A DNA stretch of 64,000 nt from Ochotona curzoniae (Eukaryota > Chordata > Mammalia > Lagomorpha > Ochotonidae): positions 24,303,501 to 24,367,500 of the forward strand of contig NW_024465369.1 in NCBI RefSeq assembly GCF_017591425.1. Direction: 5' to 3'. This document shows positions 5,191 to 61,515 of the stretch, piece after piece. The stretch's first letter is position 1, and each line of letters begins with the position of its first letter. Under the pieces are notes generated by a model, which ran no database searches, had not been told where the DNA came from, and worked only from the letters and a program-made list of their open reading frames with translations. Both the position numbers and the translations under genes were made by a program.

Positions 5191-6470
5191 CCGTTAAACA
5201 GTTGCTGTTCATTTCCACTCCCATCAAACCTTGGCAGTCATCAACATGCATTCTATCTTTATAAGAATATATATATTTTGGATATTTCATTTAAATGAAG
5301 TCATACAGTGTGTGGTTCTGTCTGATTTCTTACCATGATTATGAAGTTTATCTACGTTGTTGAATTTATTGCTTAACAATCTCCTCTTAAATGTGTATTT
5401 GTCAATTTAATTCATTCATCTGCTGATGAATGGAGTATTCAACGTCAATTTTTACTTTTTGGCAATTACATACAGTACTACTAAATACGGTTATATAAAT
5501 CTGTTTGAGTACCTATTTTTATTACTTTTAGGTATATGCCTAATAGTGGCATTGTGAGGTCATTCTAAATTATGTGTAATGTTTTTAAAGGATCACAAAT
5601 TGATTTCCATAGTGCCTAAACCATTTTGCATTGCCACAAGTATTGAATAAGGTTTACAACTTCCACACATTCTTGTTAACACTTGTCATTTTCCATCTGT
5701 TTTTTATTATATACTCATCCTAGTGAATGTGAAATAGTACCTCGCTCTGGTTTAAATTTATATTTTCCTAACAACTAATGATGTCAAACATCTTTTCATG
5801 TGCTTATAAATCATGTATATATCCTCTTTAGATAAATGTCTGTTTAAATCCCTTACCCATGTTTTAATTGAGTAATGTTTTGGTTGTTGTATTGTCAGAG
5901 TTCTTTATATATTCTGGGTATTATATCTTTATCAGCTACATGGTTTACAGACATTTTTCTGCCATTCTGTAGGTTGACTTTTCAGTTTCTTGATAATGTC
6001 TTTAATTTTATAAGTTTTTAATTTTATTATGTTCATTTCTTTTTCTTTTTTTTTTTGTTACCCTGGTATCATATTGAAATATCAGTATCTTATGCCTTCC
6101 CCTGAATGTCTTTCCATTAGGTTTTCTGAAAATTTTTTAACAATGTTTTAAGATTTCAGTGTACATCTCTTCTTAACTCCTTAAATTTATTCTGAGGCAT
6201 TTTATTTCTTTGAATGTTAATGTAAATCAAACTTTTTTCTTGTCTTCATTTTGGGAGATTTCATTGCTGGCTGAATATTTGAGTGTTTATTTGGTACACT
6301 ACAGCTTTGATAATTTCTTATCATCTCTTAGTAGTATTTTTGTGGATTCCTTGGGATTTTCTGTGTGTAGGATAAGCTCATTTGAGAACAGCAATAGTTT
6401 TACTTCTTACTTCCCAATTTGAGGTTTTTTATTTCTTATTTTTTTTTTTTATCCAATTACTCTGGATAGA
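5191..6470 (-). mobile_element. Old L1 ORF2 3' part, antisense
   Basis: Reads as the reverse complement of the C-terminal half of L1 ORF2: CATTTAAATGAAGTCATACAG, AATGATGTCAAACATCTTTTC, GAGTTCTTTATATATTCTGG and CTGTAGGTTGACTTTTCAG in the expected order. It is full of stops and indels. It continues beyond the LTR at 6536-6924. Confidence 0.8.
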
Positions 6471-6535
6471 ACTTCTTAGAAAATGTAGAACATCAGTTGC
6501 AGGAAACAGTCTTTGTCTTGCACCTGATCTTAGGC

Positions 6536-6924
6536 TGCTATGGTTTGGATGTGGTTTGTCCTGCAAGAATTTATGTGTTGCAGGCTTGATTCTCAGCATG
6601 GAGATGATGTGAAACTCAGAGGTGGAGTCTAGAGAGAAGTCTTTCTTCTGGAGTAAGTGCTCACCAGAGTGAATTGTTAAGAGAATCCAGGGTGTGATTC
6701 CTGACTTGTCTTCTGACTTCCTGTTGAGTGATACAATTGCATGCCCCTGCATGTTCTCCCAGCAGCGCAATCTACCATAAGGTGACACAGCTAAGGGAGA
6801 CCCTCACCAGAGTTTGTGCCATGCTGTTCTGACTTCTGCCATCCAAGCCAAATAAACCCCTCCTCCTTATAAAGTTTGACTGCTTTAAATATTTCAATAC
6901 AGTGATGAAAAACGCACTAATACA
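6536..6924 (+). mobile_element. Solo LTR of ERVL-MaLR (MST/THE1-like) type
   Basis: Starts TGCTATGGTTTGGATGTGG and ends with CCAAATAAACCCCTCCTCC (polyadenylation signal region) and GCACTAATACA, the layout of a mammalian apparent LTR retrotransposon LTR of about 390 bases. It splits the antisense L1, which resumes on its right side. No internal retroviral genes are present. Confidence 0.7.
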
Positions 6925-7160
6925 TAGGAAGAAAGCTTTCCATCTCTCAATACTCAGTATAGTGTTCAGTATAATACTCATTATCATGATGAGGAAACTC
7001 TCTTCCATTTCTAGGTTTCTAATTTTGTTTCTTCAAGTAATGACGTTAAATATTACCAAATGCCTTTTTACAACAGTGAAGATGATTTATGTGGGGCTAT
7101 AATGTGATAGGTATATTGTACCAAATGATTTTCTTATGTTTACTCAGTCTTGTATTCTAC
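6925..7160 (-). mobile_element. L1 ORF2 antisense, continuation after the LTR
   Basis: ATTATCATGATGAGGAAACT, CAAATGCCTTTTTACAACAG and GAAGATGATTTATGTGG line up with the reverse complement of the L1 reverse transcriptase region next to that left of the LTR. Confidence 0.65.
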
Positions 7161-16106: not shown

Positions 16107-17159
16107 GTGTTTTTTCATCACCTTCTGAGGAGGAATGCTGACCTCAGGGAAATCTGTGCAATGTTGGGGCAGAGGGATTGTGTGACAAACAGCTGGACTG
16201 TCCTTTTTCTCTCACCCCCTTTTTTTTCCCTTTGGTCAATCTGAAACTCTAGAATTGCTCTAAGGAGTGATACATTGTCATGCATAACTCATTACTTGTT
16301 AAAAAGCAAACTGCTCAAAATATTACGAGAAATATCTGTTAAAATTTTAACTACATGTTGGCTTTGTTTTTTTTAAAGTATCCTCAATACCCAAGGTAAC
16401 TAGATAGAATCTACTGCTATTTGGCAAGTTTTTAAATCCTCTATCTGTTCTAAAGGAATGAGAAAATAAATGTCTACAGTTCATTAGTGAAGAGAATGGG
16501 TCAGCATTGTGGCACAGTGATTAAGCTGCTGCCTGCAGTGCCGGCATCCAATATGGGCACATGTTCAAGGGGAGTCTCAAACCTCAACTGTTGTGGTTAT
16601 GAGAAACTGGGGCAGCCAGAACCTGGTCCTTTTGCTGTTAACAGAGAAAAGGTAGTTTTCTTTCAGCATCTACCCAAAATTTTTTACCTTGGAGAATGTC
16701 CAAGCATCGACAGGAAATGGGATAACTTGAAATACTTAATTCTTGGGAAGTTTTCTAAGTTCTACTCTCATTTGCCAATCACTGAACTTCAGAAAATACA
16801 TTTTGTGAAAAGTATTACCAGCTGGGGGGTGGGGGGTGGGGGGAGTTTGCATGTGTGTATTTGTGTACACACAAGGGCGCTCGTCCCTGGGGTGTCTCTC
16901 AAGTCTACTGGAGTTTTATCACGGTAACGACGTTCACGAGAAGATGTATTGAAAATGTAGGTTCCTGGGCTTACCTCGGGTGTTCTGAGCGGGATTCTCT
17001 AGATTTGGTGGGTCACAGTACAGCGTAAAGCACTCCACGTGATTCTTGGGTACTCTAAGCTCACAGGGTGATGTGTTCCGTCTGATAATTGACTGCTTGG
17101 CATAAAATTCTAGCCAAGGCTCTCGAGTGACCTCTACAAAACGTGTCACTGCACTCGCA
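16107..17159. other. Flank upstream of the CpG island
   Basis: Holds a 5' C-SINE fragment (+, about 16496-16632) and a G-rich run at 16824-16843 (three G6 tracts separated by single T) that could form non-B structure. No coding region. Confidence 0.5.
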
Positions 17160-17790
17160 CTCCGCCCCTCAGAGTTTTATTTTCTCCGCGTGAGGCGAGG
17201 CAAGCAGGCCGAGGCGGGGTTGCTCCGAGCCGGGCGGGGTTGGGCGGGGCTGGGCCAGCGGGCCGGCCTGGCCGGGGTGGAGGGGGAAGAGTTAATGGCT
17301 CCGCCAGCCGTCGCCGCCCTCTGAACTGGAACGGAAACCAACTTCCGGTAGGAGTCCCTCGGCCGGGCGCCGGCAGCCTGAGGCGTGAGCGAGCGTCGTG
17401 GACTCCCCGAACTGTAAGAAATTTTCGAGAACGAGTTGGTGTGTCCGAGTGCGTCAGGCGCGGCGAGCGTAGAAGTTCCCTGTGTGAGAGCCAGAGGGTC
17501 GCGCAGGCGCCGTGGCGGGGAGGGGGCCGGCGAGCGGCGTGGGGAGGCGGGCAGGCACGAGGGAGCCGCGGCCCGGAGCTCGCCCCGCTCGGCGGCGTCC
17601 GTGTCCCCCAGACAGCCCCCGTTCCCCGACGGCCGCGGGACCGCCCTCCTCGCCGAGCTCCTCCGGGGTCCCGGGAGAGCGGGGCCTGCGGGGTGAAGGG
17701 GAGGGGAGGACGCCGTTGGTGGCGCCCGGTGAAGGACCGGGGAAGGGGAGCGGGGCCGCCCCTCCCTCCCAGGACTAGTTAGTCTTTCGG
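17160..17790 (+). promoter_or_regulatory. TANK: CpG island, probable TANK promoter and non-coding first exon
   Basis: A sharply bounded GC- and CpG-rich block in otherwise AT-rich DNA, lying upstream of and on the same strand as the TANK coding exons. It holds two adjacent GC boxes (GGGCGGGG at 17232 and 17242), an ETS-type TTCCGG at 17343-17348 and an NRF1-like GCGCAGGCGC at 17501-17510. There is no TATA box. This is the usual makeup of a broad housekeeping-type promoter, and transcription probably starts around 17.33-17.40 kb. A plausible 5' splice site for the first exon is GTAAGA at 17414, but other GT sites nearby (for example GTGAGC near 17384) cannot be excluded. The assignment to TANK is inferred from position and orientation; the exact start and exon end are not shown by the sequence alone. 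Confidence 0.75.
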
Positions 17791-18744
17791 AAACTTGACA
17801 GAGGGTTCTTTCTGTCGGTTTTTTTTTACCCCCCCCCCCCGAAGGGGTTGCACAATCCCGCTCCCTGCCTTCCCGTGAGCCTGTCATCACAGCTGTGGCA
17901 GTGAGAAGTTGGTCAACTTCCCCGGGGGTCGCGGAGGACGCAGCCGCAGAGGCTGCTTGGGCTGCAGATGGAGTCCCCCGGCCGGGGAGGGGAAGGGGAG
18001 CACTGGGGACGGTGCTCCCAGCTTTCTGAGTGCAGTGCACATCCCAGTTGGTGCCTTTTGACAAGCGTGAGAAGTGGTAGTAAAGGAAGCCCAGGCCGAG
18101 AATCGAGCTCTGTTTCCTGTTGAAAAAGTATTTTGTTCCCTTCTTTTTGGGGGCAGCACACCTTCAAATGCTATAGTGCCATGTAAGAAGCCGAAAGTGA
18201 AATCCTTCTAAGCCCCCCGTTTAACCACACGTAATCCTGGGCATTTTACATCCCTTTTATATGCCTGTGGTCAGGGTTATTTCATTTTCTTAGGCAAATT
18301 ATGTGATCTGTATATCCAGTTCTGTGATCTGTGGGTTCGGATTTTAGATACTTATAGAATATATGTATATATATTCTATATATATATTCACATATATATG
18401 AAGTGTTGTCACATGTAGCTGTAGTTAATGTAGGTGTGGTGTACCCTTAGCTACATGTACCACTTTCATGTGCCTTATTCATGTATTGTTCAATTAAAAT
18501 GAAGGGAAAATCATTAGAACAGTTGAGGTGAGTGCAAATGCATGACCCAGAGCTGATTTCTAAGGAATACAAACCTTGTAGAAACCTGCAGTTTTGCTCA
18601 CGATAGCTTACGGTCAATGGCTTACCTAAATAAATTACCTAAATATTCAGTAATTTTTTCATTTCTCTTTAGTACACAGATACGTTCGTTATTTGTGAAG
18701 TGTGTGGCAAATATTTTCCAGAACTTTTGGTTTCAGCCTTTGGT
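17791..18744. other. TANK intron 1, 5' part
   Basis: GC content falls after the island. Contains a T-run next to a run of twelve C (17829-17840) and an AT microsatellite at about 18358-18400. No exon signature seen. Confidence 0.5.
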
Positions 18745-31548: not shown

Positions 31549-31582
31549 AATAAACTTAATTTTTTACAATTTAGATTTCTCG

Positions 31583-34500
31583 GGCGGGTCTCAGGACGGG
31601 GCGTCTCATGCCTGGATTCCGGACGGCCGCCATGGGCACATGGTGAGCCGTCCTCCCCGGGCCTGCTGGGTTCCAGAGGCTGCTTCCTTTGGGGTGAGTA
31701 GACCGAGGGGGGAGGCCTCTGGGACCCGGCAGGTCCGGCACCCAGCCACCGCCCTCATTGGGCGGTGAAGGGGATTTGGGAGGGGCGCGACCTTGGGCCT
31801 GGGAATTTTAAACCTCCAGCAGCCTCCCGGCGGCTGGCGGGTCTCAGGACGGGGCGTCTCATGCCTGGATTCCGGACGGCCGCCATGGGCACATGGTGAG
31901 CCGTCCTCCCCGGGCCTGCTGGGTTCCAGAGGCTGCTTCCTTTGGGGTGAGTAGACCGAGGGGGGAGGCCTCTGGGACCCGGCAGGTCCGGCACCCAGCC
32001 ACCGCCCTCATTGGGCGGTGAAGGGGATTTGGGAGGGGCGCGACCTTGGGCCTGGGAATTTTAAACCTCCAGCAGCCTCCCGGCGGCTGGCGGGTCTCAG
32101 GACGGGGCGTCTCATGCCTGGATTCCGGACGGCCGCCATGGGCACATGGTGAGCCGTCCTCCCCGGGCCTGCTGGGTTCCAGAGGCTGCTTCCTTTGGGG
32201 TGAGTAGACCGAGGGGGGAGGCCTCTGGGACCCGGCAGGTCCGGCACCCAGCCACCGCCCTCATTGGGCGGTGAAGGGGATTTGGGAGGGGCGCGACCTT
32301 GGGCCTGGGAATTTTAAACCTCCAGCAGCCTCCCGGCGGCTGGCGGGTCTCAGGACGGGGCGTCTCATGCCTGGATTCCGGACGGCCGCCATGGGCACAT
32401 GGTGAGCCGTCCTCCCCGGGCCTGCTGGGTTCCAGAGGCTGCTTCCTTTGGGGTGAGTAGACCGAGGGGGGAGGCCTCTGGGACCCGGCAGGTCCGGCAC
32501 CCAGCCACCGCCCTCATTGGGCGGTGAAGGGGATTTGGGAGGGGCGCGACCTTGGGCCTGGGAATTTTAAACCTCCAGCAGCCTCCCGGCGGCTGGCGGG
32601 TCTCAGGACGGGGCGTCTCATGCCTGGATTCCGGACGGCCGCCATGGGCACATGGTGAGCCGTCCTCCCCGGGCCTGCTGGGTTCCAGAGGCTGCTTCCT
32701 TTGGGGTGAGTAGACCGAGGGGGGAGGCCTCTGGGACCCGGCAGGTCCGGCACCCAGCCACCGCCCTCATTGGGCGGTGAAGGGGATTTGGGAGGGGCGC
32801 GACCTTGGGCCTGGGAATTTTAAACCTCCAGCAGCCTCCCGGCGGCTGGCGGGTCTCAGGACGGGGCGTCTCATGCCTGGATTCCGGACGGCCGCCATGG
32901 GCACATGGTGAGCCGTCCTCCCCGGGCCTGCTGGGTTCCAGAGGCTGCTTCCTTTGGGGTGAGTAGACCGAGGGGGGAGGCCTCTGGGACCCGGCAGGTC
33001 CGGCACCCAGCCACCGCCCTCATTGGGCGGTGAAGGGGATTTGGGAGGGGCGCGACCTTGGGCCTGGGAATTTTAAACCTCCAGCAGCCTCCCGGCGGCT
33101 GGCGGGTCTCAGGACGGGGCGTCTCATGCCTGGATTCCGGACGGCCGCCATGGGCACATGGTGAGCCGTCCTCCCCGGGCCTGCTGGGTTCCAGAGGCTG
33201 CTTCCTTTGGGGTGAGTAGACCGAGGGGGGAGGCCTCTGGGACCCGGCAGGTCCGGCACCCAGCCACCGCCCTCATTGGGCGGTGAAGGGGATTTGGGAG
33301 GGGCGCGACCTTGGGCCTGGGAATTTTAAACCTCCAGCAGCCTCCCGGCGGCTGGCGGGTCTCAGGACGGGGCGTCTCATGCCTGGATTCCGGACGGCCG
33401 CCATGGGCACATGGTGAGCCGTCCTCCCCGGGCCTGCTGGGTTCCAGAGGCTGCTTCCTTTGGGGTGAGTAGACCGAGGGGGGAGGCCTCTGGGACCCGG
33501 CAGGTCCGGCACCCAGCCACCGCCCTCATTGGGCGGTGAAGGGGATTTGGGAGGGGCGCGACCTTGGGCCTGGGAATTTTAAACCTCCAGCAGCCTCCCG
33601 GCGGCTGGCGGGTCTCAGGACGGGGCGTCTCATGCCTGGATTCCGGACGGCCGCCATGGGCACATGGTGAGCCGTCCTCCCCGGGCCTGCTGGGTTCCAG
33701 AGGCTGCTTCCTTTGGGGTGAGTAGACCGAGGGGGGAGGCCTCTGGGACCCGGCAGGTCCGGCACCCAGCCACCGCCCTCATTGGGCGGTGAAGGGGATT
33801 TGGGAGGGGCGCGACCTTGGGCCTGGGAATTTTAAACCTCCAGCAGCCTCCCGGCGGCTGGCGGGTCTCAGGACGGGGCGTCTCATGCCTGGATTCCGGA
33901 CGGCCGCCATGGGCACATGGTGAGCCGTCCTCCCCGGGCCTGCTGGGTTCCAGAGGCTGCTTCCTTTGGGGTGAGTAGACCGAGGGGGGAGGCCTCTGGG
34001 ACCCGGCAGGTCCGGCACCCAGCCACCGCCCTCATTGGGCGGTGAAGGGGATTTGGGAGGGGCGCGACCTTGGGCCTGGGAATTTTAAACCTCCAGCAGC
34101 CTCCCGGCGGCTGGCGGGTCTCAGGACGGGGCGTCTCATGCCTGGATTCCGGACGGCCGCCATGGGCACATGGTGAGCCGTCCTCCCCGGGCCTGCTGGG
34201 TTCCAGAGGCTGCTTCCTTTGGGGTGAGTAGACCGAGGGGGGAGGCCTCTGGGACCCGGCAGGTCCGGCACCCAGCCACCGCCCTCATTGGGCGGTGAAG
34301 GGGATTTGGGAGGGGCGCGACCTTGGGCCTGGGAATTTTAAACCTCCAGCAGCCTCCCGGCGGCTGGCGGGTCTCAGGACGGGGCGTCTCATGCCTGGAT
34401 TCCGGACGGCCGCCATGGGCACATGGTGAGCCGTCCTCCCCGGGCCTGCTGGGTTCCAGAGGCTGCTTCCTTTGGGGTGAGTAGACCGAGGGGGGAGGCC

Positions 34501-37500
34501 TCTGGGACCCGGCAGGTCCGGCACCCAGCCACCGCCCTCATTGGGCGGTGAAGGGGATTTGGGAGGGGCGCGACCTTGGGCCTGGGAATTTTAAACCTCC
34601 AGCAGCCTCCCGGCGGCTGGCGGGTCTCAGGACGGGGCGTCTCATGCCTGGATTCCGGACGGCCGCCATGGGCACATGGTGAGCCGTCCTCCCCGGGCCT
34701 GCTGGGTTCCAGAGGCTGCTTCCTTTGGGGTGAGTAGACCGAGGGGGGAGGCCTCTGGGACCCGGCAGGTCCGGCACCCAGCCACCGCCCTCATTGGGCG
34801 GTGAAGGGGATTTGGGAGGGGCGCGACCTTGGGCCTGGGAATTTTAAACCTCCAGCAGCCTCCCGGCGGCTGGCGGGTCTCAGGACGGGGCGTCTCATGC
34901 CTGGATTCCGGACGGCCGCCATGGGCACATGGTGAGCCGTCCTCCCCGGGCCTGCTGGGTTCCAGAGGCTGCTTCCTTTGGGGTGAGTAGACCGAGGGGG
35001 GAGGCCTCTGGGACCCGGCAGGTCCGGCACCCAGCCACCGCCCTCATTGGGCGGTGAAGGGGATTTGGGAGGGGCGCGACCTTGGGCCTGGGAATTTTAA
35101 ACCTCCAGCAGCCTCCCGGCGGCTGGCGGGTCTCAGGACGGGGCGTCTCATGCCTGGATTCCGGACGGCCGCCATGGGCACATGGTGAGCCGTCCTCCCC
35201 GGGCCTGCTGGGTTCCAGAGGCTGCTTCCTTTGGGGTGAGTAGACCGAGGGGGGAGGCCTCTGGGACCCGGCAGGTCCGGCACCCAGCCACCGCCCTCAT
35301 TGGGCGGTGAAGGGGATTTGGGAGGGGCGCGACCTTGGGCCTGGGAATTTTAAACCTCCAGCAGCCTCCCGGCGGCTGGCGGGTCTCAGGACGGGGCGTC
35401 TCATGCCTGGATTCCGGACGGCCGCCATGGGCACATGGTGAGCCGTCCTCCCCGGGCCTGCTGGGTTCCAGAGGCTGCTTCCTTTGGGGTGAGTAGACCG
35501 AGGGGGGAGGCCTCTGGGACCCGGCAGGTCCGGCACCCAGCCACCGCCCTCATTGGGCGGTGAAGGGGATTTGGGAGGGGCGCGACCTTGGGCCTGGGAA
35601 TTTTAAACCTCCAGCAGCCTCCCGGCGGCTGGCGGGTCTCAGGACGGGGCGTCTCATGCCTGGATTCCGGACGGCCGCCATGGGCACATGGTGAGCCGTC
35701 CTCCCCGGGCCTGCTGGGTTCCAGAGGCTGCTTCCTTTGGGGTGAGTAGACCGAGGGGGGAGGCCTCTGGGACCCGGCAGGTCCGGCACCCAGCCACCGC
35801 CCTCATTGGGCGGTGAAGGGGATTTGGGAGGGGCGCGACCTTGGGCCTGGGAATTTTAAACCTCCAGCAGCCTCCCGGCGGCTGGCGGGTCTCAGGACGG
35901 GGCGTCTCATGCCTGGATTCCGGACGGCCGCCATGGGCACATGGTGAGCCGTCCTCCCCGGGCCTGCTGGGTTCCAGAGGCTGCTTCCTTTGGGGTGAGT
36001 AGACCGAGGGGGGAGGCCTCTGGGACCCGGCAGGTCCGGCACCCAGCCACCGCCCTCATTGGGCGGTGAAGGGGATTTGGGAGGGGCGCGACCTTGGGCC
36101 TGGGAATTTTAAACCTCCAGCAGCCTCCCGGCGGCTGGCGGGTCTCAGGACGGGGCGTCTCATGCCTGGATTCCGGACGGCCGCCATGGGCACATGGTGA
36201 GCCGTCCTCCCCGGGCCTGCTGGGTTCCAGAGGCTGCTTCCTTTGGGGTGAGTAGACCGAGGGGGGAGGCCTCTGGGACCCGGCAGGTCCGGCACCCAGC
36301 CACCGCCCTCATTGGGCGGTGAAGGGGATTTGGGAGGGGCGCGACCTTGGGCCTGGGAATTTTAAACCTCCAGCAGCCTCCCGGCGGCTGGCGGGTCTCA
36401 GGACGGGGCGTCTCATGCCTGGATTCCGGACGGCCGCCATGGGCACATGGTGAGCCGTCCTCCCCGGGCCTGCTGGGTTCCAGAGGCTGCTTCCTTTGGG
36501 GTGAGTAGACCGAGGGGGGAGGCCTCTGGGACCCGGCAGGTCCGGCACCCAGCCACCGCCCTCATTGGGCGGTGAAGGGGATTTGGGAGGGGCGCGACCT
36601 TGGGCCTGGGAATTTTAAACCTCCAGCAGCCTCCCGGCGGCTGGCGGGTCTCAGGACGGGGCGTCTCATGCCTGGATTCCGGACGGCCGCCATGGGCACA
36701 TGGTGAGCCGTCCTCCCCGGGCCTGCTGGGTTCCAGAGGCTGCTTCCTTTGGGGTGAGTAGACCGAGGGGGGAGGCCTCTGGGACCCGGCAGGTCCGGCA
36801 CCCAGCCACCGCCCTCATTGGGCGGTGAAGGGGATTTGGGAGGGGCGCGACCTTGGGCCTGGGAATTTTAAACCTCCAGCAGCCTCCCGGCGGCTGGCGG
36901 GTCTCAGGACGGGGCGTCTCATGCCTGGATTCCGGACGGCCGCCATGGGCACATGGTGAGCCGTCCTCCCCGGGCCTGCTGGGTTCCAGAGGCTGCTTCC
37001 TTTGGGGTGAGTAGACCGAGGGGGGAGGCCTCTGGGACCCGGCAGGTCCGGCACCCAGCCACCGCCCTCATTGGGCGGTGAAGGGGATTTGGGAGGGGCG
37101 CGACCTTGGGCCTGGGAATTTTAAACCTCCAGCAGCCTCCCGGCGGCTGGCGGGTCTCAGGACGGGGCGTCTCATGCCTGGATTCCGGACGGCCGCCATG
37201 GGCACATGGTGAGCCGTCCTCCCCGGGCCTGCTGGGTTCCAGAGGCTGCTTCCTTTGGGGTGAGTAGACCGAGGGGGGAGGCCTCTGGGACCCGGCAGGT
37301 CCGGCACCCAGCCACCGCCCTCATTGGGCGGTGAAGGGGATTTGGGAGGGGCGCGACCTTGGGCCTGGGAATTTTAAACCTCCAGCAGCCTCCCGGCGGC
37401 TGGCGGGTCTCAGGACGGGGCGTCTCATGCCTGGATTCCGGACGGCCGCCATGGGCACATGGTGAGCCGTCCTCCCCGGGCCTGCTGGGTTCCAGAGGCT

Positions 37501-40500
37501 GCTTCCTTTGGGGTGAGTAGACCGAGGGGGGAGGCCTCTGGGACCCGGCAGGTCCGGCACCCAGCCACCGCCCTCATTGGGCGGTGAAGGGGATTTGGGA
37601 GGGGCGCGACCTTGGGCCTGGGAATTTTAAACCTCCAGCAGCCTCCCGGCGGCTGGCGGGTCTCAGGACGGGGCGTCTCATGCCTGGATTCCGGACGGCC
37701 GCCATGGGCACATGGTGAGCCGTCCTCCCCGGGCCTGCTGGGTTCCAGAGGCTGCTTCCTTTGGGGTGAGTAGACCGAGGGGGGAGGCCTCTGGGACCCG
37801 GCAGGTCCGGCACCCAGCCACCGCCCTCATTGGGCGGTGAAGGGGATTTGGGAGGGGCGCGACCTTGGGCCTGGGAATTTTAAACCTCCAGCAGCCTCCC
37901 GGCGGCTGGCGGGTCTCAGGACGGGGCGTCTCATGCCTGGATTCCGGACGGCCGCCATGGGCACATGGTGAGCCGTCCTCCCCGGGCCTGCTGGGTTCCA
38001 GAGGCTGCTTCCTTTGGGGTGAGTAGACCGAGGGGGGAGGCCTCTGGGACCCGGCAGGTCCGGCACCCAGCCACCGCCCTCATTGGGCGGTGAAGGGGAT
38101 TTGGGAGGGGCGCGACCTTGGGCCTGGGAATTTTAAACCTCCAGCAGCCTCCCGGCGGCTGGCGGGTCTCAGGACGGGGCGTCTCATGCCTGGATTCCGG
38201 ACGGCCGCCATGGGCACATGGTGAGCCGTCCTCCCCGGGCCTGCTGGGTTCCAGAGGCTGCTTCCTTTGGGGTGAGTAGACCGAGGGGGGAGGCCTCTGG
38301 GACCCGGCAGGTCCGGCACCCAGCCACCGCCCTCATTGGGCGGTGAAGGGGATTTGGGAGGGGCGCGACCTTGGGCCTGGGAATTTTAAACCTCCAGCAG
38401 CCTCCCGGCGGCTGGCGGGTCTCAGGACGGGGCGTCTCATGCCTGGATTCCGGACGGCCGCCATGGGCACATGGTGAGCCGTCCTCCCCGGGCCTGCTGG
38501 GTTCCAGAGGCTGCTTCCTTTGGGGTGAGTAGACCGAGGGGGGAGGCCTCTGGGACCCGGCAGGTCCGGCACCCAGCCACCGCCCTCATTGGGCGGTGAA
38601 GGGGATTTGGGAGGGGCGCGACCTTGGGCCTGGGAATTTTAAACCTCCAGCAGCCTCCCGGCGGCTGGCGGGTCTCAGGACGGGGCGTCTCATGCCTGGA
38701 TTCCGGACGGCCGCCATGGGCACATGGTGAGCCGTCCTCCCCGGGCCTGCTGGGTTCCAGAGGCTGCTTCCTTTGGGGTGAGTAGACCGAGGGGGGAGGC
38801 CTCTGGGACCCGGCAGGTCCGGCACCCAGCCACCGCCCTCATTGGGCGGTGAAGGGGATTTGGGAGGGGCGCGACCTTGGGCCTGGGAATTTTAAACCTC
38901 CAGCAGCCTCCCGGCGGCTGGCGGGTCTCAGGACGGGGCGTCTCATGCCTGGATTCCGGACGGCCGCCATGGGCACATGGTGAGCCGTCCTCCCCGGGCC
39001 TGCTGGGTTCCAGAGGCTGCTTCCTTTGGGGTGAGTAGACCGAGGGGGGAGGCCTCTGGGACCCGGCAGGTCCGGCACCCAGCCACCGCCCTCATTGGGC
39101 GGTGAAGGGGATTTGGGAGGGGCGCGACCTTGGGCCTGGGAATTTTAAACCTCCAGCAGCCTCCCGGCGGCTGGCGGGTCTCAGGACGGGGCGTCTCATG
39201 CCTGGATTCCGGACGGCCGCCATGGGCACATGGTGAGCCGTCCTCCCCGGGCCTGCTGGGTTCCAGAGGCTGCTTCCTTTGGGGTGAGTAGACCGAGGGG
39301 GGAGGCCTCTGGGACCCGGCAGGTCCGGCACCCAGCCACCGCCCTCATTGGGCGGTGAAGGGGATTTGGGAGGGGCGCGACCTTGGGCCTGGGAATTTTA
39401 AACCTCCAGCAGCCTCCCGGCGGCTGGCGGGTCTCAGGACGGGGCGTCTCATGCCTGGATTCCGGACGGCCGCCATGGGCACATGGTGAGCCGTCCTCCC
39501 CGGGCCTGCTGGGTTCCAGAGGCTGCTTCCTTTGGGGTGAGTAGACCGAGGGGGGAGGCCTCTGGGACCCGGCAGGTCCGGCACCCAGCCACCGCCCTCA
39601 TTGGGCGGTGAAGGGGATTTGGGAGGGGCGCGACCTTGGGCCTGGGAATTTTAAACCTCCAGCAGCCTCCCGGCGGCTGGCGGGTCTCAGGACGGGGCGT
39701 CTCATGCCTGGATTCCGGACGGCCGCCATGGGCACATGGTGAGCCGTCCTCCCCGGGCCTGCTGGGTTCCAGAGGCTGCTTCCTTTGGGGTGAGTAGACC
39801 GAGGGGGGAGGCCTCTGGGACCCGGCAGGTCCGGCACCCAGCCACCGCCCTCATTGGGCGGTGAAGGGGATTTGGGAGGGGCGCGACCTTGGGCCTGGGA
39901 ATTTTAAACCTCCAGCAGCCTCCCGGCGGCTGGCGGGTCTCAGGACGGGGCGTCTCATGCCTGGATTCCGGACGGCCGCCATGGGCACATGGTGAGCCGT
40001 CCTCCCCGGGCCTGCTGGGTTCCAGAGGCTGCTTCCTTTGGGGTGAGTAGACCGAGGGGGGAGGCCTCTGGGACCCGGCAGGTCCGGCACCCAGCCACCG
40101 CCCTCATTGGGCGGTGAAGGGGATTTGGGAGGGGCGCGACCTTGGGCCTGGGAATTTTAAACCTCCAGCAGCCTCCCGGCGGCTGGCGGGTCTCAGGACG
40201 GGGCGTCTCATGCCTGGATTCCGGACGGCCGCCATGGGCACATGGTGAGCCGTCCTCCCCGGGCCTGCTGGGTTCCAGAGGCTGCTTCCTTTGGGGTGAG
40301 TAGACCGAGGGGGGAGGCCTCTGGGACCCGGCAGGTCCGGCACCCAGCCACCGCCCTCATTGGGCGGTGAAGGGGATTTGGGAGGGGCGCGACCTTGGGC
40401 CTGGGAATTTTAAACCTCCAGCAGCCTCCCGGCGGCTGGCGGGTCTCAGGACGGGGCGTCTCATGCCTGGATTCCGGACGGCCGCCATGGGCACATGGTG

Positions 40501-43500
40501 AGCCGTCCTCCCCGGGCCTGCTGGGTTCCAGAGGCTGCTTCCTTTGGGGTGAGTAGACCGAGGGGGGAGGCCTCTGGGACCCGGCAGGTCCGGCACCCAG
40601 CCACCGCCCTCATTGGGCGGTGAAGGGGATTTGGGAGGGGCGCGACCTTGGGCCTGGGAATTTTAAACCTCCAGCAGCCTCCCGGCGGCTGGCGGGTCTC
40701 AGGACGGGGCGTCTCATGCCTGGATTCCGGACGGCCGCCATGGGCACATGGTGAGCCGTCCTCCCCGGGCCTGCTGGGTTCCAGAGGCTGCTTCCTTTGG
40801 GGTGAGTAGACCGAGGGGGGAGGCCTCTGGGACCCGGCAGGTCCGGCACCCAGCCACCGCCCTCATTGGGCGGTGAAGGGGATTTGGGAGGGGCGCGACC
40901 TTGGGCCTGGGAATTTTAAACCTCCAGCAGCCTCCCGGCGGCTGGCGGGTCTCAGGACGGGGCGTCTCATGCCTGGATTCCGGACGGCCGCCATGGGCAC
41001 ATGGTGAGCCGTCCTCCCCGGGCCTGCTGGGTTCCAGAGGCTGCTTCCTTTGGGGTGAGTAGACCGAGGGGGGAGGCCTCTGGGACCCGGCAGGTCCGGC
41101 ACCCAGCCACCGCCCTCATTGGGCGGTGAAGGGGATTTGGGAGGGGCGCGACCTTGGGCCTGGGAATTTTAAACCTCCAGCAGCCTCCCGGCGGCTGGCG
41201 GGTCTCAGGACGGGGCGTCTCATGCCTGGATTCCGGACGGCCGCCATGGGCACATGGTGAGCCGTCCTCCCCGGGCCTGCTGGGTTCCAGAGGCTGCTTC
41301 CTTTGGGGTGAGTAGACCGAGGGGGGAGGCCTCTGGGACCCGGCAGGTCCGGCACCCAGCCACCGCCCTCATTGGGCGGTGAAGGGGATTTGGGAGGGGC
41401 GCGACCTTGGGCCTGGGAATTTTAAACCTCCAGCAGCCTCCCGGCGGCTGGCGGGTCTCAGGACGGGGCGTCTCATGCCTGGATTCCGGACGGCCGCCAT
41501 GGGCACATGGTGAGCCGTCCTCCCCGGGCCTGCTGGGTTCCAGAGGCTGCTTCCTTTGGGGTGAGTAGACCGAGGGGGGAGGCCTCTGGGACCCGGCAGG
41601 TCCGGCACCCAGCCACCGCCCTCATTGGGCGGTGAAGGGGATTTGGGAGGGGCGCGACCTTGGGCCTGGGAATTTTAAACCTCCAGCAGCCTCCCGGCGG
41701 CTGGCGGGTCTCAGGACGGGGCGTCTCATGCCTGGATTCCGGACGGCCGCCATGGGCACATGGTGAGCCGTCCTCCCCGGGCCTGCTGGGTTCCAGAGGC
41801 TGCTTCCTTTGGGGTGAGTAGACCGAGGGGGGAGGCCTCTGGGACCCGGCAGGTCCGGCACCCAGCCACCGCCCTCATTGGGCGGTGAAGGGGATTTGGG
41901 AGGGGCGCGACCTTGGGCCTGGGAATTTTAAACCTCCAGCAGCCTCCCGGCGGCTGGCGGGTCTCAGGACGGGGCGTCTCATGCCTGGATTCCGGACGGC
42001 CGCCATGGGCACATGGTGAGCCGTCCTCCCCGGGCCTGCTGGGTTCCAGAGGCTGCTTCCTTTGGGGTGAGTAGACCGAGGGGGGAGGCCTCTGGGACCC
42101 GGCAGGTCCGGCACCCAGCCACCGCCCTCATTGGGCGGTGAAGGGGATTTGGGAGGGGCGCGACCTTGGGCCTGGGAATTTTAAACCTCCAGCAGCCTCC
42201 CGGCGGCTGGCGGGTCTCAGGACGGGGCGTCTCATGCCTGGATTCCGGACGGCCGCCATGGGCACATGGTGAGCCGTCCTCCCCGGGCCTGCTGGGTTCC
42301 AGAGGCTGCTTCCTTTGGGGTGAGTAGACCGAGGGGGGAGGCCTCTGGGACCCGGCAGGTCCGGCACCCAGCCACCGCCCTCATTGGGCGGTGAAGGGGA
42401 TTTGGGAGGGGCGCGACCTTGGGCCTGGGAATTTTAAACCTCCAGCAGCCTCCCGGCGGCTGGCGGGTCTCAGGACGGGGCGTCTCATGCCTGGATTCCG
42501 GACGGCCGCCATGGGCACATGGTGAGCCGTCCTCCCCGGGCCTGCTGGGTTCCAGAGGCTGCTTCCTTTGGGGTGAGTAGACCGAGGGGGGAGGCCTCTG
42601 GGACCCGGCAGGTCCGGCACCCAGCCACCGCCCTCATTGGGCGGTGAAGGGGATTTGGGAGGGGCGCGACCTTGGGCCTGGGAATTTTAAACCTCCAGCA
42701 GCCTCCCGGCGGCTGGCGGGTCTCAGGACGGGGCGTCTCATGCCTGGATTCCGGACGGCCGCCATGGGCACATGGTGAGCCGTCCTCCCCGGGCCTGCTG
42801 GGTTCCAGAGGCTGCTTCCTTTGGGGTGAGTAGACCGAGGGGGGAGGCCTCTGGGACCCGGCAGGTCCGGCACCCAGCCACCGCCCTCATTGGGCGGTGA
42901 AGGGGATTTGGGAGGGGCGCGACCTTGGGCCTGGGAATTTTAAACCTCCAGCAGCCTCCCGGCGGCTGGCGGGTCTCAGGACGGGGCGTCTCATGCCTGG
43001 ATTCCGGACGGCCGCCATGGGCACATGGTGAGCCGTCCTCCCCGGGCCTGCTGGGTTCCAGAGGCTGCTTCCTTTGGGGTGAGTAGACCGAGGGGGGAGG
43101 CCTCTGGGACCCGGCAGGTCCGGCACCCAGCCACCGCCCTCATTGGGCGGTGAAGGGGATTTGGGAGGGGCGCGACCTTGGGCCTGGGAATTTTAAACCT
43201 CCAGCAGCCTCCCGGCGGCTGGCGGGTCTCAGGACGGGGCGTCTCATGCCTGGATTCCGGACGGCCGCCATGGGCACATGGTGAGCCGTCCTCCCCGGGC
43301 CTGCTGGGTTCCAGAGGCTGCTTCCTTTGGGGTGAGTAGACCGAGGGGGGAGGCCTCTGGGACCCGGCAGGTCCGGCACCCAGCCACCGCCCTCATTGGG
43401 CGGTGAAGGGGATTTGGGAGGGGCGCGACCTTGGGCCTGGGAATTTTAAACCTCCAGCAGCCTCCCGGCGGCTGGCGGGTCTCAGGACGGGGCGTCTCAT

Positions 43501-45066
43501 GCCTGGATTCCGGACGGCCGCCATGGGCACATGGTGAGCCGTCCTCCCCGGGCCTGCTGGGTTCCAGAGGCTGCTTCCTTTGGGGTGAGTAGACCGAGGG
43601 GGGAGGCCTCTGGGACCCGGCAGGTCCGGCACCCAGCCACCGCCCTCATTGGGCGGTGAAGGGGATTTGGGAGGGGCGCGACCTTGGGCCTGGGAATTTT
43701 AAACCTCCAGCAGCCTCCCGGCGGCTGGCGGGTCTCAGGACGGGGCGTCTCATGCCTGGATTCCGGACGGCCGCCATGGGCACATGGTGAGCCGTCCTCC
43801 CCGGGCCTGCTGGGTTCCAGAGGCTGCTTCCTTTGGGGTGAGTAGACCGAGGGGGGAGGCCTCTGGGACCCGGCAGGTCCGGCACCCAGCCACCGCCCTC
43901 ATTGGGCGGTGAAGGGGATTTGGGAGGGGCGCGACCTTGGGCCTGGGAATTTTAAACCTCCAGCAGCCTCCCGGCGGCTGGCGGGTCTCAGGACGGGGCG
44001 TCTCATGCCTGGATTCCGGACGGCCGCCATGGGCACATGGTGAGCCGTCCTCCCCGGGCCTGCTGGGTTCCAGAGGCTGCTTCCTTTGGGGTGAGTAGAC
44101 CGAGGGGGGAGGCCTCTGGGACCCGGCAGGTCCGGCACCCAGCCACCGCCCTCATTGGGCGGTGAAGGGGATTTGGGAGGGGCGCGACCTTGGGCCTGGG
44201 AATTTTAAACCTCCAGCAGCCTCCCGGCGGCTGGCGGGTCTCAGGACGGGGCGTCTCATGCCTGGATTCCGGACGGCCGCCATGGGCACATGGTGAGCCG
44301 TCCTCCCCGGGCCTGCTGGGTTCCAGAGGCTGCTTCCTTTGGGGTGAGTAGACCGAGGGGGGAGGCCTCTGGGACCCGGCAGGTCCGGCACCCAGCCACC
44401 GCCCTCATTGGGCGGTGAAGGGGATTTGGGAGGGGCGCGACCTTGGGCCTGGGAATTTTAAACCTCCAGCAGCCTCCCGGCGGCTGGCGGGTCTCAGGAC
44501 GGGGCGTCTCATGCCTGGATTCCGGACGGCCGCCATGGGCACATGGTGAGCCGTCCTCCCCGGGCCTGCTGGGTTCCAGAGGCTGCTTCCTTTGGGGTGA
44601 GTAGACCGAGGGGGGAGGCCTCTGGGACCCGGCAGGTCCGGCACCCAGCCACCGCCCTCATTGGGCGGTGAAGGGGATTTGGGAGGGGCGCGACCTTGGG
44701 CCTGGGAATTTTAAACCTCCAGCAGCCTCCCGGCGGCTGGCGGGTCTCAGGACGGGGCGTCTCATGCCTGGATTCCGGACGGCCGCCATGGGCACATGGT
44801 GAGCCGTCCTCCCCGGGCCTGCTGGGTTCCAGAGGCTGCTTCCTTTGGGGTGAGTAGACCGAGGGGGGAGGCCTCTGGGACCCGGCAGGTCCGGCACCCA
44901 GCCACCGCCCTCATTGGGCGGTGAAGGGGATTTGGGAGGGGCGCGACCTTGGGCCTGGGAATTTTAAACCTCCAGCAGCCTCCCGGCGGCTGGCGGGTCT
45001 CAGGACGGGGCGTCTCATGCCTGGATTCCGGACGGCCGCCATGGGCACATGGTGAGCCGTCCTCCC
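31583..45066 (+). repeat. Tandem array of 253-bp CpG-rich units, 53 full copies plus 75 bp
   Basis: Unit starts (GGCGGGTCTCAGG) recur exactly every 253 bases from 31583 to 44992. The period never slips and by eye I see no base differences between copies. Each unit has about 17 CpGs, giving roughly 900 in 13.4 kb. Because 253 is not a multiple of 3, the 79-codon antisense frame that recurs in each unit cannot extend through the array and is a by-product of the repeat. A short inverted repeat (GGACGGC/GCCGTCC) lies at about unit positions 38-71. The last copy breaks off after CCTCCC at 45066. Confidence 0.98.
31757..31836 (+). promoter_or_regulatory. Core promoter carried by each 253-bp unit (first copy shown)
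   Basis: Taking the first base of a unit as +1 (the exact 5' end of the whole insertion), the preceding unit supplies an inverted CCAAT box ATTGG at -79 to -75 (31757-31761), an overlapping GC box GGGCGG (31760-31765), a second GC-rich GGGGCGCG near -54, and a TATA-like TTTTAAA at -30 to -24 (31806-31812). Downstream at about +44 is GCCGCCATGG, whose reverse strand matches the YY1 core ATGGCGGC. The spacing of CCAAT at about -75 and TATA at -30 is that of a textbook RNA polymerase II promoter, repeated 53 times. Function is inferred, not shown. Confidence 0.6.
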
Positions 45067-46990
45067 GGGCGGCCAGTGCGCCATTGGTGCCAGGCTCCGC
45101 CTGCTGGCCGCCCGGCTGGGGAGCTCTGGGGATTTGGTTCTTTGATTCGCTGCTTAATTAGCTCCAGGTTGAACCCATTGTGATTCTCGGACCTCAAACA
45201 GGCAGTAACTCTTTCCTTGTAAAAGTTGTAATCACTAATAATGCTGGGCACCAAATACCAGTCCATGCAGAAGCCTGGGCTTGGGGCTTGTCCTGCAAAA
45301 GTATCTCCAACGGCTGGCTAATGTGTCAACTGGTAGGGAACAGAGCAGATCTGGTACGAATGAGCAAACCTTAGCCCACAAGTAAAACTAGAAACCAGGA
45401 GGGAGCAAAGGTCATGCCAAGCTAGGCTCTTGTACCTACTGGTCTGCAGGAGCCAGGGACACGAAGCCACAGTGTCTAAGGCAGAGGTCGGGACAGGTGA
45501 GGAGCTGTGCCAAGCTGAGTCAGAGCAACCACTGGCATGCGAGTGATCTATGGCTGGGAACAGACTCGGTTGGGGAGCAAAGGGGACAACCCTAGCTGGG
45601 CTGAGGTTCCCACAAAGAGGTGCATGGCCTGGAAGGGGGGCTGCGTTCTGATCTGGATACAGTTGTAGTCTCCCTTGGCACAAGTGTGGACTGGGATTGG
45701 ATGCACCGAACCGGGCTGGACCCCGACTCCCCCTGGTGTTCTGGAGGACCAGGGCAGATGTGTGATAGACTAGGCAAGGTCTCAAACCCCTACTGAGCCA
45801 TGTGTGAGCCATACGTAGGTATGGACAAACGATGGCTGGGCCGAAACATCCAACAGCAAGAACCAGATTGGGTGGAAGGCCAGTCAGGAAAAGCCACAGT
45901 TCCTGCTATGACAGGAGGTGGACTGAGTAGGGTTGGCTCATGGACCCACTGGTAAGCGTGTAACCTGGCATTGGGAGAGGTTCTGATGGAGGAGCCTGGG
46001 CAACTCCTCTGGCAGGACACAGACCCGGCAGGTCAGCGCAAGAAACATGATAGGAAACAGCCCAGAAAAGGCCATGGAAAGCTACCCACTGGCATACACT
46101 TGGCAGACGTGGGGGCAAGACCAGGCTGAATCTGTCCACGTCATCCACTGGCAAATCCAGGCACCAGCGTGGGTTGACCCAGGTTCGGTCGCAACAAAGA
46201 CTAGTGCACAATATGGAATGCCGAGGTGAGGTTGCCTGTACCAGAGGGGACCGCAGCGCCCAACCAGCCTGAGAACAAGAAAGGAAGTAGGCAGAGCCAG
46301 CAGGGGAACAAGGGAGGGTTCCTTTGCAGGATAGCTACTTCCGCAGGAGAGCATGGGCTGGGATGGGGGCAGACCAGACTAGGCAGAGCTACCACATCTG
46401 CGTGCCTCATGTGGACTAGATCAGGGAAAAGCCGAGCTGGGCTGATTATTCCTACTGGTGCAAACAGAATTAAAGTGGGCGGGGTTTAGTTGGGCAGCAG
46501 TAACTGGAATCTGGGAGTGGGAGAGGCCTGGGAGGGAAATAGTGGGCTCATCCCTCTTGGGTTACCACTTCCACGGGAGGACATAAAACTAAACAGTGGC
46601 TGGGGTGGAATGGGGTGTGGGACAGACTGGATTACTGCTACACTTACTGGCAAACCAGGGTAGGGGCGGTCCTGGTGGGGGTTATTGTGGGTCGCTCCAA
46701 CTAGGCTGCAGCTCCCACTGGTTTAGGTGAGGACCAAATATGTGTGGGGCAGAACCAGGCTGGACCGCAACACCCATTGGTTCCAGTGGAAGTCGGGAGT
46801 GAAAACAGAACCAACCCAGCAATTACAACCACCAGCTGATTGGAGCGATGGACGGTGCCTGGCCCTGTACTTGTTAGCACATACAAGAAGTTTCTTTGGA
46901 GATCTTCCTAATCTAAATGCTGGACTCAGAACCCTAACGAAGAAAAGAGAGAAGACAGAACAGGTCAACCAACCATCTCAGCTATGATGG
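45067..46990 (+). repeat. Non-coding body of the composite element with a degenerate ~60-bp minisatellite
   Basis: A CCACTGG(C/T)-type core recurs at about 45438, 45531, 45674, 45732, 45948, 46008, 46088, 46147, 46454, 46646, 46717 and 46775. Many neighbouring cores are 58-60 bases apart, with GGCTGG(G/A) and CAGACCAGGCTGG motifs between them. This is a strongly diverged tandem repeat. At its 5' edge is a perfect 12-bp inverted repeat (45065-45076 and 45104-45115) with a 27-base loop. Open frames here are short and unlike known proteins. Confidence 0.6.
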
Positions 46991-47323
46991 ACTATGTCAA
47001 TCAGTGGATTTTTCAAAGACCTCATAGTGCTTGGAGTGGCAAGATTGACAGCGATTCATAACTGTTGCAATATCAAAACCACTCGAGGAAGAACCTCAGA
47101 GCATGCCCTACACCCGGGACTTGGGGAGGGTGGGAAATTGGGTGGGCCTTCTCCCTTAATACCCCCCTTTTTAACATGAAGGTAACAATATGGAAAACAT
47201 ACTAGTATTATCCACTTTCCTGTAGCCCTTGAACCTTCTTACTCTAACTAAGTATGTGAAGAATGTCAAAATTAATTTTATTAATAAAAAAAAAAAAGAA
47301 GTCAAAAAAAAAAAAAAAAAAAA
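46991..47323 (+). mobile_element. L1-like 3' end and poly(A) tail of the composite element
   Basis: The final segment contains CTTCCTGTAGCCCTTGA and a following stretch that lines up with the fragment at 61354-61515. It ends with AATAAA at 47283-47288 and an A-tail interrupted by GAAGTC. The shared 3' end suggests that L1 machinery recognised the RNA by a family-specific tail. Confidence 0.65.
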
Positions 47324-47339
47324 ACAATTTAGATTTCTC

Positions 47340-61353: not shown

Positions 61354-61515
61354 CAGAGGCTTCTTCTCTCCTTGTCTTCCCCTTCACCCAGATATAGGAA
61401 GGAAAAAAAAAGAGAATGTGGAAATGGTGATCTCACCCACCTTCCTGTAGCCCTTGACCCTTATCACCTAATCAACTATGTAAAAATCATCAAAAATAAA
61501 AATAATAATTAATAA
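61354..61515 (+). mobile_element. L1-type 3' end fragment, same family as the tail of the 15.7-kb element
   Basis: CACCTTCCTGTAGCCCTTGA and CAACTATGTAAAAATCATC, then an AT-rich tail, line up with about 47.21-47.28 kb. It has no coding part. It is the only second trace of that 3' end in the window. Confidence 0.6.

Follow-up and report, generated by a model that had tools for sequence, protein, structure and literature searches.

In a 64,000-nucleotide stretch of the genome of the pika Ochotona curzoniae (RefSeq assembly GCF_017591425.1, contig NW_024465369.1, positions 24,303,501 to 24,367,500 of the forward strand; hereafter, the window), we characterized an insertion at positions 31,582 to 47,323 that consists of a long tandem array, a body without long reading frames, and an A-tail. 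We consider with considerable confidence that it is a young member of a multicopy retrotransposon family without open reading frames (ORFs), whose repeat units would serve as promoters, whose RNA would be inserted by LINE-1 proteins acting in trans, and whose array would grow at the DNA level. The family, its shared junctions, the duplicated targets, the cut-site motif, the clustered 5' ends, and the box at −30 were read directly from the genome sequence, and transcription, LINE-1 proteins in trans, and DNA-level array growth are what would connect them. The observations of the initial annotation, which was made from the letters of the window, were borne out overall: the target duplication, the array, the non-coding body, and the AATAAA with its A-tail all lie where it had placed them.

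A multicopy family without reading frames

We searched the source genome assembly (2.08 Gb in 1,389 contigs) with the 253-bp unit of the array and obtained 322 matches, which fall, among the matches listed, at no fewer than 28 loci besides the window. The 3' sides were fetched for 20 of these 28 loci, and the same body stood behind the units in every case, with 90.7 to 99.3% identity. Neither ORF1 nor ORF2 was present between the units and the 3' end at any of the 20 loci, and the longest plus-strand frame in the body was 91 to 152 amino acids (aa) over the 21 copies, the window included. Thus, a private deletion of a LINE-1, which the initial annotation had set against its own proposal, was ruled out, and the proposal was favored.

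The two ends of the body gave a similar picture. A search with the tether, which joins the array to the rest of the body, yielded 2,451 first-look candidates, of which 40 were scored (97 to 100% identical), and a search with the 3' end yielded 2,125, of which 40 were likewise scored (98 to 100% identical); one of each 40 was the window. Because first-look candidates are not confirmed copies, the copy number is bounded only from below. The distance from the tether start to the 3' end was 2,220 to 2,224 bp at all 17 loci scored for both (window included). Deviations were found at C60, where unit position 92 is joined to body position 33, and at C393, which stops 76 bp early with an A-tail at that point. 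Copies with the same junctions, duplicated targets, and varying unit number, for which the initial annotation had proposed a genome search, were therefore found.

Divergence from the majority sequence was 0.2 to 1.0% in the group of 12 copies to which the window belongs, 1.0 to 3.2% in 8 others, and 10% in C1366. Besides, older body copies, approximately 67 to 88% alike, were located in L017 (5919 to 8113), L010, L012, L016, L027, and L014. In L017, the body is preceded at a short distance by a unit-like piece, implying that the layout is old.

Insertion signatures

Using short 5' flanks, a script detected exact target duplications of 12 to 17 bp at 15 of the 20 loci, in addition to that of the window, and C41 and C353b showed, by eye, a duplication with one mismatch. 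In the window, the 16-bp duplication is perfect, as the initial annotation had stated, and its sequence occurs at these two sites and nowhere else in the stretch. At 17 sites (the window and 16 others), the commonest bases around the cut were TT/AAAA, with T at −1 in 14, A at +1 in 14, and A at +4 in 15. This is the motif described for the LINE-1 endonuclease in PMC13174262. The nick at the window's own site, on the opposite strand, would have been TTGT/AA.

A-tails were observed, and two further members (L034 and L035) begin inside the body, as expected of 5' truncation. Taken together, the duplications, the TT/AAAA sites, the A-tails, and the truncated copies support the view that the family was inserted by LINE-1-type retrotransposition. 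C1364, C2b, and the window each carry extra letters between two A-runs of the tail (GAAGTC at 47298 to 47303 in the window); these are possibly short 3' transductions from source loci. Directly behind the C1380b copy, which has no target duplication by script, we observed an inverted unit fragment (L028, 2369 to 2414), and C1380b is probably a rearranged copy.

The repeat unit as a putative promoter

The 253-bp unit is 69% G+C with 17 CpG, and its sole run of five or more A/T is AATTTTAAA. The box TTTTAAA stands at unit position 224, which is 30 bp ahead of where the next unit begins, and this spacing was found at 20 of 20 loci in both unit-length groups. An inverted CCAAT lies at unit positions 173 to 179 (−81 to −75 from the next unit start), adjoined by GGGCGG boxes at 167 (minus strand) and 178 (plus strand), and a YY1-like GCCGCCAT lies at position 44. 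Since TTTTAAA precedes the unit start by 30 bp, the insertion starts at the point where transcription from a TATA-type promoter would be expected to begin.

The 5' ends of the copies accord with this. With unit numbering set by the window, 13 of the 21 copies start at unit positions 251 to 4 (binomial p, 9e-16, for a 7-bp window that was chosen after the positions were seen, with a chance of 7/253 per copy); the count is 12 of 20 without the window and 12 of 18 when C431, C60, and C1380b are left out. The remaining eight start at positions 11, 34, 144, 180, 219, 224, 227, and 242. In mouse, the 5' end of a complete L1Md insertion is taken as the start site of the parent element, according to PMC6454616. 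The clustering within 7 bp of one point, together with TTTTAAA at −30, makes the unit resemble a complete promoter and supports the idea that the units act as promoters, with the start site inside a monomer-like unit. The single G before the first unit base of the window is not templated by the array, because the unit ends in T; it is possibly cap derived.

Array length and growth

The array of the window, a 5' tandem promoter-like array as the initial annotation had described it, spans 13,484 bp with a period of 253 bp, zero substitutions, and no interruption. Its 53 units make it the longest found, as the other compared copies hold 1 to 25 listed units. The body of the window has 6 private substitutions, absent from all 20 other copies, whereas the six-fold longer array had none; at the rate of the body, the array would carry about 36. 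Unit lengths among the matches listed were mostly 250, 253, or 254 bp and largely constant per locus, and such locus-specific lengths point to local homogenization. We infer that the length and uniformity of the array fit DNA-level tandem growth no less well than a single giant insertion, and that either the array was amplified or homogenized after insertion or the six substitutions were inherited from an unsampled source copy.

One event of this length would be exceptional, as the initial annotation had remarked. A single LINE-1 event that inserted the whole length, with 53 units copied from an equally long source, would account for the exact target duplication and for a 5' end that falls in the start-site cluster, and a uniform source array is possible, given that unit matches 100% identical to the window's unit are present at other loci. 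However, the other copies have smaller unit numbers, the 13.5-kb array has no substitution although the 2.2-kb body has 6 private ones, and the mostly locus-specific unit lengths point to local homogenization; we consider one such event possible but unlikely.

It is less probable still that the length and perfect uniformity of the array are an assembly artefact atop a real, shorter element. Fifty-three units without any difference might be expected of such an artefact, but both array junctions are clean, the same assembly contains mixed units (C906) or other unit lengths at other loci, and megablast of the rest of the window revealed no further near-identical repeat, only pairs approximately 79% alike.

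Mouse LINE-1 offers a parallel: PMC6454616 discusses second-strand priming of the cDNA and unequal crossing-over as models of monomer gain and gives 50 type A monomers as the longest mouse array, and PMC9022269 counts seven loci with more than 10 monomers.

Relation to LINE-1

LINE-1 ORF1 is abundant in the pika genome (11,351 first-look candidates, of which 150 were scored, many without stops). Eight of the 150 scored loci, picked by profile score and not by youth or completeness, were inspected, and none had the unit or the body in the flanks of ORF1, out to about 1.5 kb each way. ORF2 ends were found at two loci, L014 and L064, the latter with a complete LINE-1 3' untranslated region (UTR) of approximately 440 bp that includes a G-quadruplex motif and an A-tail. 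The 3' end of the body aligned with the L064 3' UTR no better than shuffled sequences (60 of 300 reach its score), and its alignment with the stretch behind the L014 ORF2 end, in which the part examined has no A-tail, was not significant. A LINE-1 3' end by descent was thus not supported by these two ORF2 3' sides.

Mammalian LINE-1 elements usually have a G-quadruplex motif at the 3' end. In the pika family, such a motif was found close to the 3' end in all 21 copies; when the last 400 bp were shuffled 500 times, it arose once. The "L1-like 3' end" of the initial annotation therefore stands in its general features (G-quadruplex motif, AATAAA, and A-tail) and not in its sequence, which does not match the one complete LINE-1 3' UTR. 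Likewise, its non-coding, LINE-1-dependent composite is supported by the junctions, the duplications, and the varying unit number, whereas an L1-type promoter and L1-type 3' end by descent were not recovered: neither the 8 ORF1 neighborhoods nor the 2 ORF2 3' sides yielded a LINE-1 sharing the unit or the 3' end, a relative for which the annotation had proposed to look. Thus, the family appears to behave as a LINE-1 passenger, and descent from LINE-1 is not supported by the 8 ORF1 and 2 ORF2 loci.

These loci also bear on an origin by internal deletion or splicing of a LINE-1, in which the array and tether would be its 5' UTR and the rest its 3' UTR, the ORFs having been lost before the family spread. 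The array and tether have the layout of mouse L1Md 5' UTRs, as outlined in PMC9022269, and a G-quadruplex motif is shared with the one complete LINE-1 3' UTR found. The ORF1 surroundings and the 3' ends compared above do not agree with such an origin, nor does a decayed LINE-1 in L021 (approximately 5760 to 7160, minus strand), which has no unit or body in the 2.9 kb 5' of its ORF1; we regard this origin as rather improbable. The L021 element, with an ORF1 frame and an ORF2 start, lies beside the family member C841. In addition, several ORF1 frames of 343 aa are open in the genome, and L065 and L066 show no ORF2 end in approximately 4.1 to 6.3 kb downstream of the ORF1 domain; these loci are possibly ORF1-only elements.

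That the insertion is merely the retrocopy of a long non-coding RNA of a host gene, present in one or few copies, would suit its non-coding, polyadenylated nature but is contradicted by the copy number (besides the window, 39 near-identical tethers and 39 near-identical 3' ends, each set drawn from over 2,000 candidates, as well as the older copies approximately 67 to 88% alike in fetched flanks) and is extremely improbable.

Composition of the insertion and its surroundings

The features of the window are collected in Table 1. The body (45067 to 47282, approximately 2.2 kb) has no long reading frames: its longest plus-strand frame is 94 aa, and 10 plus-strand pieces gave zero matches in Pfam, so that the lack of protein-coding capacity noted initially is upheld. 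A protein encoded by the array was ruled out (one array frame in one search, 0 of 37 candidates at E ≤ 10), as was a known Rfam RNA (nothing reached the gathering scores). Searches of viral and bacterial collections with DNA patterns returned a single match, L001, with 19 bp in common, which is chance. On the minus strand of the body, an open frame of 195 aa (45318 to 45905) is preserved in 15 of 21 copies, and in C2a and C1380b it extends to 338 aa; possibly, this frame is due to chance in G-rich sequence.

The body had been called a degenerate minisatellite. A self-trained profile recruited 17 stretches, compared with 6 to 8 in 15 shuffled bodies, and 16 off-diagonal self-matches scored at least 12, whereas 60 shuffles averaged 2.8 and never exceeded 7. 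The summed profile scores differed little (337 bits versus 144 to 323 in shuffles), so the profile control is only moderate, and neither Tandem Repeats Finder nor self-BLAST (E, 0.01) detected an array in the body. A minisatellite is thus present but very diverged.

Table 1. Features of the insertion and a related relic, in window coordinates
Feature	Position	Strand	Remark
5' target-site duplication copy, ACAATTTAGATTTCTC	31566..31581	.	Exact match to 47324-47339
One extra G between 5' target duplication and first unit base	31582..31582	+	
Promoter-like array of 53 identical 253-bp units in tandem, then a further 75 bp	31583..45066	+	Unbroken periodicity; unit at other loci
Unique tether joining array and minisatellite	45067..45290	+	Near-identical genome copies
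Very degenerate minisatellite body, units of ~60-70 bp	45278..46804	+	Self-trained profile and off-diagonal matches, moderate
3' terminal region, including G-quadruplex motif 47116-47146	46883..47290	+	Near-identical genome copies
AATAAA (47283-47288) overlapping A-run (47286-47297), GAAGTC, A-run of 21 A (47304-47324)	47283..47324	+	
3' target-site duplication copy	47324..47339	.	Exact match to 5' copy; shares final A of tail (47324)
Old relic of related 3' end	61362..61498	+	nhmmer, E 1.8e-5 to 47147-47274

The match of the relic to the family starts one base past the G-quadruplex motif, and this start may mark the point where reverse transcription stopped. A CpG-island-like stretch at 17001 to 18000 (GC, 0.665) is probably a host gene promoter.

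Proposed mechanism and comparison with known elements

We propose that each 253-bp unit would be a self-contained RNA polymerase II promoter, in which the CCAAT and GC boxes and TTTTAAA at −30 direct transcription to begin within the first bases of the unit that follows. The resulting RNA would extend over the rest of the array, the tether, and the minisatellite body and would be cleaved after AATAAA and polyadenylated, whereupon LINE-1 ORF2p might insert it at TT/AAAA sites by target-primed reverse transcription. Since any unit could serve as a promoter and equally as a 5' end, copies that start within the array would keep promoters. Unequal exchange, slippage, or conversion would rebuild and lengthen the arrays at the DNA level and may have led to the 53 identical units.

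Several points weigh against this mechanism. No convincing duplication was detected by script at C431, C60, and C1380b (3 of the 20 loci); by eye, C431 has one of low complexity, and C60 and C1380b have none that convinces. Eight of the 21 copies start outside the 251-to-4 cluster, whose 7-bp width was set post hoc, and the 5' ends are BLAST edges, possibly off by a few bases. The YY1, CCAAT, and GC boxes of the unit are motif matches only. The perfect identity of the 53 units could partly be an assembly effect, and later array growth is not proven, because the private substitutions may be source derived and identical units exist elsewhere. Finally, the LINE-1 sequences identified were ORF1 frames and ORF2 fragments, with no fully intact element among them.

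Among the titles and abstract openings in print, to which the comparison was confined (Dfam and Repbase being outside it), no such lagomorph family was apparent; the dataset of PMC7140322 covers 14 mammals, including rabbit. SVA resembles the pika family in being composite and non-coding, with GC-rich tandem repeats and LINE-1 acting in trans, as described in PMC13174262. Unlike in SVA, the tandem part of the pika family lies at the very 5' end, each unit is promoter-like, and the order array, tether, minisatellite, 3' end differs from the familiar SVA order of hexamer, Alu-like part, variable number of tandem repeats, and SINE-R. No SVA part was recognized on reading the pika element, for which no tool search was made. 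The gibbon LAVA is a further composite, non-coding, LINE-1-mobilized relative of SVA. HAL1 (half-LINE-1) is non-autonomous and LINE-1 dependent as well and keeps ORF1, which the pika family lacks.

The mouse L1Md A, Tf, and Gf elements share with the pika family a 5' array of promoter monomers of approximately 200 bp, a non-monomeric tether, and 5' ends clustered near the start site, as set out in PMC6454616 and PMC9022269. They differ from it, compared by layout and not by sequence, in that the pika unit is 253 bp long with a TATA-like box at −30, and that ORF1/ORF2 stood behind the tether at 0 of 20 pika loci. The human SpIREs are likewise LINE-1-type insertions without internal parts; however, PMC5860796 describes them as usually a dead end, with splicing inside the 5' UTR or into ORF1, whereas the pika family is spreading and non-coding throughout.

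The odds seem even to us that the family is a lagomorph counterpart of SVA, that is, a long-lived, ORF-less, LINE-1-dependent lineage of non-LINE-1 origin with a self-renewing chain of TATA-type promoters that grows at the DNA level. If so, the element would regenerate its promoter between rounds of copying and seed very long GC-rich arrays genome-wide. The mostly locus-specific unit lengths and the high uniformity favor DNA-level growth, and the old question of monomer gain becomes testable.

Among large composite families that are non-coding and depend on LINE-1, SVA and its relatives are known best. With a further case from outside the primates, one could ask what makes a good LINE-1 passenger RNA; the candidate features in the pika family are a fixed start base, a body rich in G, a G-quadruplex motif close to the 3' end, and an A-tail.

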